Assembly: GCA_026390695.1 (NCBI GenBank)
Contig: JAPLFL010000128.1
Span: 62,001 to 126,000, forward strand
DNA: 64,000 nucleotides
From: Candidatus Kapaibacterium sp.
GTDB lineage: Bacteria > Bacteroidota > Ignavibacteria > Kapaibacteriales > UBA2268
Direction: 5' to 3'
Under the pieces are notes generated by a model. It was given only the letters and a program-made list of their open reading frames with translations, made no database searches and had not been told where the DNA came from. Made by a program: the position numbers and the translations under genes. This document shows positions 58,559-62,938 of this stretch, piece by piece (within the stretch, counting starts at the first letter, position 1; each line of letters opens with the position of its first letter).

Positions 58559-58993
58559 CTATTTTTTTATTAAATTCCCTTTTCCATCGAAACTGAGATC
58601 GGTTCTCTTTTTTCCCTTTGTAATTTCCACTTCATATTTTATTGTGCCTTTTGAATCCACAATTTTCGCTACTTCGGTAATCTTTGCACCGGTTTGATTT
58701 TTTGTTACATAGTCAATGATTACTTTCGGTGCTTCTGATGCAGCAATAGTGGTTTCAGTTTCAACAATTTTTCCATCAGCGTCAATCACTAATGAAATTT
58801 TGTGCTTTTGATTATCGATAAATCCTACCTCATAACTCTTGCCTTCCATCTCCCATTTCACTTTTGAAGCATTAGGATACTGTTTGGTAAAGGAATCTTT
58901 TACTTTTGCAGGAATATTGACGGCTTTCTGTTCTTTAGCACTCAGAGCCATGCCGAACAAAAGAATGATGATTGATAAAGAAAGATTTTTCAT
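58559..58993 (-). CDS. Periplasmic PepSY-like (PepSY_2) domain protein
   Basis: A 144-residue exported protein with a signal peptide (MKNLSLSIIILLFGMALSAKE). Two PepSY-like units are visible: VNIPAKVKDSFTKQYPNASKVKWEMEGKSYEVGFIDNQKHKISLVIDADGKIVETE, then a second with KVIIDYVTKNQTGAKITEVAKIVDSKGTIKYEVEITKGKKRTDLSFDGKGNLIK. This is the layout of the Bacteroidota PepSY-like proteins structurally related to beta-lactamase inhibitor proteins. The role is unclear; inhibition of proteases or binding of peptidoglycan enzymes has been suggested for the superfamily. The gene is single and has its ATG preceded by TTGGAGTTATT. Confidence 0.85.
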   Translation of the reverse strand: MKNLSLSIIILLFGMALSAKEQKAVNIPAKVKDSFTKQYPNASKVKWEMEGKSYEVGFIDNQKHKISLVIDADGKIVETETTIAASEAPKVIIDYVTKNQTGAKITEVAKIVDSKGTIKYEVEITKGKKRTDLSFDGKGNLIKK

Positions 58994-59353: not shown

Positions 59354-60880
59354 TTAATTTATAAATTTATTAAAGATTAATTCAACACTTGTTCCCGCGT
59401 TCTTCTCTGAATCAATACTAATCTTGAATTTGTTTGAAAAAGAGTATTCAAAAGCTAAAGCAAGTGAAAGTCCAATTCCTTCGTATTTACGCGTTGCACT
59501 CATATCTTCCTGTGTAAAGGGTTCAAAAATTTTATCTATAAAATTAGAAGAAATACCAATTCCAGTATCTTTTATCAACAATTGAAATTGATTATTGGGA
59601 ATTTCATTTAATGAAATAGCCACTACTCCAGAATCTGTAAATTTGAAAGCATTATCTAAAATTGAAAAAATTGTTTTATCAATTATTTGTTCATCACCTT
59701 CAATAATAGCACTATCTAAATTACAAAAAAAGTAAATTTCTATTGGTTTTTGGAGATTTGTGATTTCCTTATTATAAAAAAGGTAATAGCTATCGATGAT
59801 ATTTTTAACGTCTAATTCAGAAATATTGGGTTTGTAATTCCCGCTTTTTAGATTTGATAAATCTGTGAATAATTCCAGTGTTTTAGTTAATCTTGCAACT
59901 CCAGAATTAAGCATATCCAAAGTTTCCGTAAGTTCTTCATCAGAGTTTTGATCCTCACAGATAACCTTAAGAAGTGCTGCAGAACCTTTAATAAAACTTA
60001 AAGGAGTTCGAATTTCGTGATTCATATTTGCAATTATTTCAGTTTTTAGCTTGTCAGCCTTTTTAACTTCTTCAATTGCTACAACCAATTCATTTGTTCT
60101 CTTAGCAACTTGATCTTCTAAATGAAGATTTTGTAATTCGAGAGCATTGTTGAAGGCAGTAACCTCTTCGATTCTTTCTTTTTGAATTTGGAGTAGTTTA
60201 TCTACCATAGCGTTAATAGATTTGGCAACAAGATTTGTTTCTTTATTACCTTTTTCATGGTCGGCACGAGCACTCATATCACCGCCATCAATTTTTTCGG
60301 TGAATTTTTGAAGTCTCCTGAGTGGTAAAGTAATTTTCGAACTCATATAGAAAGTGATAATAAAACCAATTAAAAGCAAAATAATTTCAAATGCAATTAT
60401 TCTAATTAATGCCTGCTTTTTTTGTTCGAGAAATTGATTGGTTGAAAATCCGATATAAAAGTTCCCTTTAAGATAAACGGCATCCCATTTTTGGCTAACA
60501 TAATAGGTTGGGTTATCAATTGAGTTTGCTTTTATCAATTGATTCAGTTCATCAGAAGTTTTTTCGAAAGTTTGAGGGAATGAGGCAATAGTCTCGTTGT
60601 TTTCATCCTTCAAAATAATATTTACAAACTTTGTGTCATGTTTTAACCATTCAAATACCTGGTTAATTGCCTGAAAATTTTCTTTGGAAAGCCCGAGCTC
60701 AATACCTAACTTTACTGTTTTTGTAGAGGTATTAATACTGTCGAAATAGAAATTTTGGAAAGCAGATACTTGTGTATTGATAACATAAAGGAAAGCACTT
60801 GTACCTGTGATAATTATTCCCAAAGACACAAAAAGTATGAGTTGTGTTTTAAAACTAAGCCTGAAAAAGTACTTTACCAT
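59354..60880 (-). CDS. HAMP-containing sensor histidine kinase
   Basis: A 508-residue membrane kinase. The N-terminal helix (TQLILFVSLGIIITGTSAFLYVI) and a second one near 165 (IIAFEIILLLIGFIITFYMSS) enclose a periplasmic sensor of about 125 residues. HAMP (KITLPLRRLQKFTEKIDGGDMSARAD), a coiled coil, HisKA (IANMNHEIRTPLSFIKGSAALL) and HATPase (DNAFKFTDSGVV, KDTGIGIS, YEGIGLSLALAFEYS) follow. No receiver domain is present. It is the last gene of a three-gene unit after an outer-membrane protein and a phosphate-binding-like protein, which suggests the module responds to the solute they handle. The response regulator is not in the window. Confidence 0.9.
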   Translation of the reverse strand: MVKYFFRLSFKTQLILFVSLGIIITGTSAFLYVINTQVSAFQNFYFDSINTSTKTVKLGIELGLSKENFQAINQVFEWLKHDTKFVNIILKDENNETIASFPQTFEKTSDELNQLIKANSIDNPTYYVSQKWDAVYLKGNFYIGFSTNQFLEQKKQALIRIIAFEIILLLIGFIITFYMSSKITLPLRRLQKFTEKIDGGDMSARADHEKGNKETNLVAKSINAMVDKLLQIQKERIEEVTAFNNALELQNLHLEDQVAKRTNELVVAIEEVKKADKLKTEIIANMNHEIRTPLSFIKGSAALLKVICEDQNSDEELTETLDMLNSGVARLTKTLELFTDLSNLKSGNYKPNISELDVKNIIDSYYLFYNKEITNLQKPIEIYFFCNLDSAIIEGDEQIIDKTIFSILDNAFKFTDSGVVAISLNEIPNNQFQLLIKDTGIGISSNFIDKIFEPFTQEDMSATRKYEGIGLSLALAFEYSFSNKFKISIDSEKNAGTSVELIFNKFIN

Positions 60881-60937
60881 ATTTAGTTTTTAGTAGCTAC
60901 TACAATTTAAAGTAAAAAATAATATTTCTGCTGTGAA

Positions 60938-61369
60938 TCAGTACATAATTTGGATAACTTTAACTTCATCTGGCAATTTTTTCAAAGACTCGACATATCC
61001 AATGGCATTTTCATTATCAGCCACGCTTTTCATCATTTCCTTCTCACTTGTTACAATTAAGGGTGGAGACGCTTTCCCACTAAGTGAAACTTGAAGCCAT
61101 ATCCTACTCAGTCTATTTGGCGCTATATTTAAAAAATTGTTACAAAATTCGTTTTTCAGATTATTGTCAATATTAAAATCAATAATTTGAATCTTTGTGT
61201 TATTTTGCCATATAGTAGTGTTCCCATAATAAATATTCCTTAGATAGCCAATTTCGATAGATTGTATAGGATTTGCTTTGTTTACAATAATGTAATGAGC
61301 ACTAGTTTTCACAACTGCAAAAATGATGAATAACGCAAGGATTGATATATTTAATATTGCTCTTTTCAT
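60938..61369 (-). CDS. PstS-like periplasmic binding protein, short form
   Basis: The 143-residue exported protein has a signal peptide (ILNISILALFIIFAVVKTSA). It then has the phosphate-binding-protein-like start HYIIVNKANPIQSIEIGYLRNIYYGNTTIWQNNTKIQIIDF, and the late motif VTSEKEMMKSVADNENAIGYVESLKKLPDEVKVIQI. It is about half the length of a full PstS, containing little more than one lobe, and no pst transport genes are nearby. The family of such short PBP-like proteins occurs as a sensor partner in many genomes. It sits 57 bases before the kinase gene and just after the outer-membrane protein gene (3 bases). Confidence 0.8.
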   Translation of the reverse strand: MKRAILNISILALFIIFAVVKTSAHYIIVNKANPIQSIEIGYLRNIYYGNTTIWQNNTKIQIIDFNIDNNLKNEFCNNFLNIAPNRLSRIWLQVSLSGKASPPLIVTSEKEMMKSVADNENAIGYVESLKKLPDEVKVIQIMY

Positions 61370-61372
61370 AAA

Positions 61373-62434
61373 TTAAAATACAACAGCTAAACTTATTTTA
61401 TATACTGCATCATGTTGACCTATATTATTGTTGCTTAATCCCAAAAATTGCGCTTCAGTTTTAAGATATACACCTTTAGAAACATTGTAATTCAAGCCAA
61501 TAATTGGAGTATTCTTATTTCCACGAACATTTCCAACATTTTTAAAGACAGTTGTCAAAACTGTATAAGGTGTCAGTCTGTCATACAAAGTATAACCCAT
61601 TAATAAATAAAAAAGTCCAGAGACTTGTCTGTTATCAGCTTTATCTTCTAAGAGGGTCATTATTCCTTCCAGTTGAACAAGAACATTTGATTTATCATAT
61701 TGAAAATCCAAGCCGACAGTATGAACCCATTCATCCTTGCTTGATATTATTCCTACCGGATTATCCTCGAGAAAATAAGAAGTTCCAACTTGAATCCCGC
61801 TCAACCATTCAGGTCTATATTTAAGACGCCCTGAAACAGAAAAATTTTTATTGTAATACACCCCATTTATTGTTTCCCAGCGTCCGAATCCAATTCCAAC
61901 TGAATAGTCTATTTGTGAACTAATCGTGTCAGTATTGATATTGCCAAGGAACTCGACACCAGCCATATACTTGCCAAAAAGACGCTGATGATTCGCATTC
62001 TTCCCTGTATCGTTATCTAAAAAACTTAATGGTCTATAAATAACTGGAGCATCTACTGGATAATATGAAGGAGATGCATCATGGATTTTATTATACAAAC
62101 CAAAGTCTGTTAAAAATTTACCTGCTCGTATTTGAAAAACTGGACTAAATGAATATTCGAGGAAAGTTTGAGAAATTTTTATTGCTCCTTGAACACTACT
62201 TTCAGATATATCTGCACCATCTTCAAATTCAAAGTCAGTGAGGAATCGTACATTTGAGCTAAGTTCTGAATTAAACATCAAATTAATTCGCCTTACTTGA
62301 ATATCTGTTAATGATTTTTGGAAATCAATATTAGTTAAATCAAATTGTGAATAGCCCCAGATGGCGGGTGACTTTGCCAAGACCACCGAATTGCTCAGTA
62401 GGAGTATGTATATTAGGTATTTAATTCTTTGCAT
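61373..62434 (-). CDS. Outer-membrane beta-barrel protein, porin-like
   Basis: A 353-residue barrel. A signal peptide (MQRIKYLIYILLLSNSVVLA) precedes alternating strands such as FEFEDGADISESSVQGAIKISQTFLEYSFSPVFQIRAGKFLTDFGLYN, and the last strand ends in ISLAVVF with the C-terminal aromatic residue used by the BAM complex. The RAGKF and DFGLY segments resemble phosphate- or substrate-specific porin-like proteins (OprO/OprP-type or DcaP-like). It is the first gene of the unit with the PstS-like protein and the kinase, and has a well-formed promoter upstream. Confidence 0.8.
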   Translation of the reverse strand: MQRIKYLIYILLLSNSVVLAKSPAIWGYSQFDLTNIDFQKSLTDIQVRRINLMFNSELSSNVRFLTDFEFEDGADISESSVQGAIKISQTFLEYSFSPVFQIRAGKFLTDFGLYNKIHDASPSYYPVDAPVIYRPLSFLDNDTGKNANHQRLFGKYMAGVEFLGNINTDTISSQIDYSVGIGFGRWETINGVYYNKNFSVSGRLKYRPEWLSGIQVGTSYFLEDNPVGIISSKDEWVHTVGLDFQYDKSNVLVQLEGIMTLLEDKADNRQVSGLFYLLMGYTLYDRLTPYTVLTTVFKNVGNVRGNKNTPIIGLNYNVSKGVYLKTEAQFLGLSNNNIGQHDAVYKISLAVVF

Positions 62435-62475: not shown

Positions 62476-62506
62476 CAAAAATACGGAAATTCCAACTACT
62501 TTCCAA
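62476..62506 (-). promoter_or_regulatory. Bacteroidetes-type promoter for the outer-membrane protein-binding protein-kinase operon
   Basis: On the minus strand, TTG (62504-62506), a 20-base spacer and TATTTTTG (62476-62483) match both boxes. The ATG at 62434 follows 42 bases later. Confidence 0.6.
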
Positions 62507-62597
62507 AAAAATATACACTAAATCATAATAAATTGAGTTTCTAATACAAAACCGCAACATTTGTAGTAATATCATTTCCTTAATGAATTAGGAATTA

Positions 62598-62721
62598 TTG
62601 TCATTCCCGAGCATGAGACTGTGTAAAAACCTACAAATTTAAATAACTTGTCATTCCCGAGCATGCGGGAATCCCCATCTATGGCACCTTAGGAGATTCC
62701 TGCATTCGCAGGAATGACAAG
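62598..62721. repeat. REP/MITE-like palindromic repeat with a direct copy
   Basis: CTTGTCATTCC (62647-62657) and GGAATGACAAG (62711-62721) form the outer inverted repeat of a 75-base element. Inner hairpins (CCCGAGCATGCGGG and CCTGCATTCGCAGG) nest within it. The 18 bases TTGTCATTCCCGAGCATG are copied at 62598-62615. The sequence resembles dispersed TCATTCCCG..CGGGAA repeats in other bacteria. It is GC-rich relative to its surroundings. Confidence 0.85.
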
Positions 62722-62938
62722 AAATTGCAGTTTTCACACATGCTCATACGCAGGGTAGAATCTTCCTTCGACTGATAAAGAGAAATTTCGCTCCTAATGA
62801 CCATCCGGTGATTTTTTTCGCAATTTCACACGACTCATTCGCAGGAACTTTCATAATTATAGAAATCACAAATTAGAATGAAAATATTATTTTGGCTGTC
62901 TCATAAGTTTGAAAACCTTGGATTTGTCATAATGCATT
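62722..62938. other. Non-coding tail of a 570-base intergenic region
   Basis: The 62435-63006 gap has the operon promoter on its left, then the repeat element, then this stretch and a terminator. I saw no reading frame or structured RNA here. The bases near 62731-62751 (GTTTTCACACATGCTCAT) loosely mirror those at 62611-62632 and may be the edge of a larger repeat. Confidence 0.45.

Follow-up and report, generated by a model that had tools for sequence, protein, structure and literature searches.

The window, a stretch of 64,000 nucleotides from Candidatus Kapaibacterium sp. (contig JAPLFL010000128.1), carries a unit of three genes that, by analogy, probably encodes a three-tier envelope sensor working like the YfiB-YfiR-YfiN system, with a relative of a single PstS lobe in the position of YfiR. 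On the minus strand, read 5' to 3', the order is a porin-like barrel, a small PstS-like protein and a kinase (Table 1), separated by gaps of 3 nt and 57 nt, and the tight arrangement named in the original prediction was thereby recovered at identical coordinates.

Table 1. Features of the three-gene unit, positions in the window
Feature	Position	Strand	Basis
Outer-membrane beta-barrel, porin-like, 353 aa	61373..62434	-	ORF; PF07396 above cut-off, partial
Small secreted PstS-like protein, 143 aa, single domain homologous to PstS domain II	60938..61369	-	PF12849 partial, below cut-off; profile; AlphaFold; Foldseek
Membrane histidine kinase, 508 aa: TM - putative Cache/CHASE8-like input domain - TM - HAMP - HisKA - HATPase_c	59354..60880	-	PF00672, PF00512, PF02518 above cut-off
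Kinase input module, residues 1-235: TM1, periplasmic domain, TM2, HAMP	60176..60880	-	AlphaFold; WalK resemblance
Candidate Bacteroidota-type promoter TTTG-N20-TATTTTTG	62476..62507	-	Pattern scan; ~42 nt ahead of barrel start

The "good promoter" also proposed for the unit held up less well. A Bacteroidota-type match does lie ahead of the barrel, but the TTTG-N20-TATTTTTG pattern was seen 6 times in the window against ~5.2 expected on both strands, which is about chance frequency, and the sigma-70 scan listed no site on the minus strand immediately before 62434. At 62590-62740, in the gap preceding the unit, there are several GTCATTCCCGAGCATG / CGGGAATC-like copies resembling a small repeat element, and directly downstream of the kinase, ~360 nt away, a PepSY-like secreted protein (PF11396) is encoded at 58559-58993 (-).

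Bio-informatic comparison of the small protein gave PBP_like_2 (PF12849) as its sole Pfam match, at 18.8 bits under a cut-off of 27 and covering profile positions 96-186 of 267, together with a partial match to TIGR02136 (20.8 versus 206.6 bits, below the cut-off), while PF13689, the YfiR family, was not matched. When a 53-member profile of the small proteins was compared with PDB chains it matched PstS in the middle part alone (1twy 99-218, E 3e-11, the best, and 4exl 74-185). AlphaFold predicts a single alpha/beta domain (pLDDT 93.5), for which Foldseek ranks PstS structures first, 1twy again being the best. With 143 aa, one predicted domain and a match to the PstS middle region only, the protein does not have the two-lobed PstS fold; what had been described as a binding protein of about half size is more precisely, as judged from profile and predicted model, the middle (second) domain, domain II, of PstS alone, the other lobe being missing.

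In PstS the phosphate is held by the SGT loop and an arginine. The corresponding RExxSGT motif was found in all ten full-length PstS sequences covering the site and is lost as a motif among 91 small proteins, where the R is mostly L, S and T are kept in 29% and 26% and G is outside the top four residues. By this comparison most of the ancestral phosphate-binding loop is lost, and together with the single lobe this speaks against the binding of phosphate or another oxyanion, which had been put forward for the protein. The same 91 proteins have a motif of their own, W91 (92%), G98 (95%) and P103 (100%), in a segment that is mostly unaligned in PstS, and both this W/G/PP motif and a TPGAIGYV motif are strongly conserved. 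The small protein is thus homologous to the central domain of PstS and shares its fold, but differs in the absent lobe, the lost anion loop, an extra Trp helix with a GxxxPP segment and the lack of pst genes nearby.

A first search with the small protein against 60 related genomes matched 13, and a 12-member profile was then run against 297 genomes of the phylum. The phylum matches fall into two groups, one with E <=1e-18, all in open frames of ~140-250 aa, and the other with E ~1e-10 and worse, mostly of 270-340 aa, the latter being full-length PstS. A contig scan with a ten-row alignment revealed at least 396 relatives, an earlier single-protein scan of contigs having matched none. The best 80 of these come from Ignavibacteria, other Bacteroidota, Rhodothermia, KSB1, Zixibacteria, Krumholzibacteriota, Calditrichota, Deltaproteobacteria, Pontiellaceae and Beta- and Gammaproteobacteria. 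It could be argued that the protein is a decayed PstS fragment or that the three genes are chance neighbours, as suggested by its half size and by a PF12849 score under the curated cut-off, but this reading is refuted by conservation across at least seven phyla, with the same length, fold and specific motif and with constant neighbours, and we regard it as practically negligible.

The neighbourhood was counted in 79 analysable named loci. In 77 of these the small-protein gene adjoins a barrel on its own strand (62 upstream, 15 downstream), a count that is partly circular since the barrel model was built from barrels adjoining small proteins. Of the 39 small-protein loci of the phylum, 37 have a gene of barrel size immediately upstream in the same orientation. 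A signalling gene is found at most two genes away in 64 loci, on the same strand in 59; the 15 loci without one within that distance include some at contig ends. PstC, PstA and PhoU were found in none of the 79, nor was there a close PstB match. A conserved triad in relatives could accordingly be confirmed, and neither random association in related genomes nor pst transport genes beside homologues, the two findings that would speak against the original prediction, was observed. The arrangement in one family of genomes is small protein, barrel, sensor, yet the three genes still form a group at every site with a strong small-protein match.

Some loci at first appeared to deviate. Porin-sensor pairs seemingly without the small protein (loci L200-L210) proved to have its gene across the porin from the sensor in every case where it could be located, and seemingly fused ORFs in loci L175 and L098 were judged to be overlapping frames and not fusions. 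In the closest relative (L021:3732-5203, minus strand) a sensor of 257 aa and a kinase-like part of 233 aa are in separate overlapping frames, representing a split gene or a frameshift.

The barrel matches Porin_O_P (PF07396) with 27.5 bits, above the family cut-off of 20.9, the match being limited to residues 26-115. Among 36 sister barrels Porin_4 was matched by 8 and Porin_O_P by 7, and in several copies of Pseudomonadota the NCBI annotation of the barrel neighbour is "porin". As the barrel of this unit is the only PF07396 match in the genome and the pair recurs throughout the loci counted above, the association of barrel and small protein is far beyond chance, and the barrel, originally proposed as the entry, has proved a constant partner.

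When the remainder of the genome was analysed a strong full-length PstS match was identified at the end of contig C43 (L184), and PstC, PstA, PstB, PhoU, a PhoR-like kinase and a PhoB-like regulator are together on contig C7 (L189), the Pst operon apparently being broken between the two contigs behind PstS. Since this canonical Pst-PhoU-PhoR-PhoB operon is located elsewhere, the triad is not the Pst-Pho system of the genome. It resembles PhoR-PhoB with PstSCAB-PhoU in that a PstS relative neighbours a HAMP/HisKA kinase but differs in having no permease, ATPase, PhoU or regulator. High-affinity scavenging of phosphate or oxyanions, in which porin and binding protein would supply an ABC transporter whose genes lie elsewhere and would only be regulated by the kinase, could draw on the sequence kinship to PstS and phosphate-selective porins. 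It is however highly improbable considering that PstC, PstA and PhoU are missing near the homologues, that the genome has both a complete Pst operon and a strong match to full-length PstS at other sites and that only one lobe, with RExxSGT absent as a motif, is left. Because the neighbours are a barrel and signallers, the pst genes are absent and the canonical Pst operon is separate, the proposal that the protein may serve sensing rather than transport is well supported.

The signalling genes near the small proteins encode a kinase, a chemoreceptor, a GGDEF/EAL protein or SpoIIE. For the third genes of the phylum (n=29) HAMP was identified in 26, HATPase_c in 14 and MCPsignal in 12, and when the output type was placed on the small-protein tree at least ten changes were seen, although the tree is built on 123 columns and many of its forks are unresolved. 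Even the five-member clade of the window mixes outputs, histidine kinase versus SpoIIE. The proposal of the kinase as output therefore stands in so far as a signaller is the constant type of partner and is a kinase here, but chemoreceptors, GGDEF/EAL and SpoIIE proteins occupy the third position just as often, and the conserved unit is not specifically a kinase triad; Marinobacter nauticus, for example, carries the chemoreceptor version. As a point against the YfiR-like reading, a minority of third genes carry four-helix-bundle or other inputs, and the small protein would therefore not always face the same domain.

Copies on plasmids were matched using the full small protein as query (a 70-aa fragment matched none) and are accompanied by a chemoreceptor in Pseudoalteromonas, P. 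aeruginosa and Ideonella and by an EAL protein in Caballeronia. A link between the P. aeruginosa plasmid copy and a named chemoreceptor was considered but not established. On the P. aeruginosa megaplasmids of loci L096 and L230 the chemoreceptor-porin-small protein unit adjoins a TetR regulator and an RND efflux pump, and on an Alteromonas megaplasmid (locus L088) small protein and barrel lie close to type IV CRISPR genes, the stretch containing no signalling gene. In Pseudoduganella and Duganella (L168 and L171), among the genes after 4423, the third gene of 803 aa is followed by a gene of 116 aa, which may encode a STAS anti-anti-sigma factor.

The kinase of the window has HAMP, HisKA and HATPase_c domains all above their cut-offs and is thus a histidine kinase; no response regulator is located near it, the nearest on its contig being ~88 kb away. 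AlphaFold modelling of its first 235 residues (pLDDT 76, weak in the loop 117-124) predicts the order TM-periplasmic domain (residues ~34-158)-TM-HAMP, and in the model the input module resembles the extracellular PAS/Cache domains of WalK. Homologous input units head chemoreceptors beside other small proteins. A class-wide search revealed the input unit in two recurrent settings, either alongside barrel and small protein or following a TonB-type receptor and a YfiR/HmsC-like protein; of the upstream proteins in the latter setting all eight tested matched PF13689, six above the cut-off. The genome of the window itself contains such a parallel triad (L185:3961-8092, contig C63), made up of a TonB-dependent receptor, a YfiR/HmsC-like protein (PF13689) and a kinase sharing 26% identity with that of the window. 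Pfam CHASE8 has no match in the window kinase and a sub-threshold match in this homologous YfiR-linked paralogue, and it is through homology to the paralogue that the window kinase is linked to CHASE8.

YfiN of P. aeruginosa is repressed when YfiR binds to its periplasmic PAS domain, and the outer-membrane YfiB draws YfiR off (PMC3375315); the YfiR-YfiN module has already been proposed to control diverse outputs (PMC3375315). The unit of the window shares with YfiBNR (TpbB) an outer-membrane partner, a small soluble periplasmic protein and an inner-membrane sensor with HAMP and a periplasmic domain that may be of the PAS/CHASE8 type, and the YfiR-linked kinase of the same genome is homologous to its own. 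It differs in that the periplasmic protein is a one-lobe PstS relative and not a PF13689 member, that the outer-membrane part is a porin-like barrel instead of a peptidoglycan-binding lipoprotein and that the output is a kinase. If the unit works in this way, outer membrane, periplasm and inner membrane would house the barrel, the PstS relative and the kinase, respectively. Instead of feeding a transporter, the PstS relative would act as a protein relay, docking on the Cache/CHASE8-like periplasmic domain of the kinase and perhaps also on the barrel, and when docked it would switch the kinase via HAMP as YfiR does to YfiN, while the signal may arise at or pass through the barrel; the contacts between the proteins, the direction of regulation and the origin of the signal are what we infer.

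A ligand-loaded receptor, in keeping with classical sensing by solute-binding proteins, is a possible though clearly less likely explanation. A specific solute would then enter through the barrel and be bound by the small protein, which might dimerise to make up for the absent lobe, and the kinase would be activated by the ligand-bound form. A porin partner would fit a small solute, the TPGAIGYV and W/G/PP motifs are strongly conserved, and solute-binding proteins are known to stimulate kinases, chemoreceptors and cyclases widely (PMC9602780), but only half of the ligand cleft is left, the protein no longer has the anion loop and no ligand pocket was identified. Receptors stimulated by solute-binding proteins, such as BctC-BctE, resemble the unit of the window in pairing a relative of these proteins with a membrane sensor, and differ from it since the unit is single-lobed, has no transporter genes and has a constant porin partner.

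Taken across the phyla, we find it rather likely that the YfiR-like relay proposed here represents a widespread, unnamed envelope-signalling family built from a barrel, a single-domain relay derived from PstS and a plug-in inner-membrane output, which may be a kinase, a chemoreceptor, a c-di-GMP enzyme or a SpoIIE phosphatase. It would form a second, independent relay family beside YfiR with the same kind of input domain. The module is apparently undescribed; searches of open-access literature directed at the triad or at its components revealed no description of the triad, a scope outside which most subscription journals lie and which does not imply absence elsewhere. The database label "phosphate ABC transporter substrate-binding protein" carried by the small proteins is probably wrong as to function. 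If the proposal is true, several hundred genomes would harbour an unrecognised module coupling the outer membrane to chemotaxis, c-di-GMP, two-component and SpoIIE-type outputs, and the relay of a YfiR-type system would be replaceable by an unrelated protein with the input domain unchanged.
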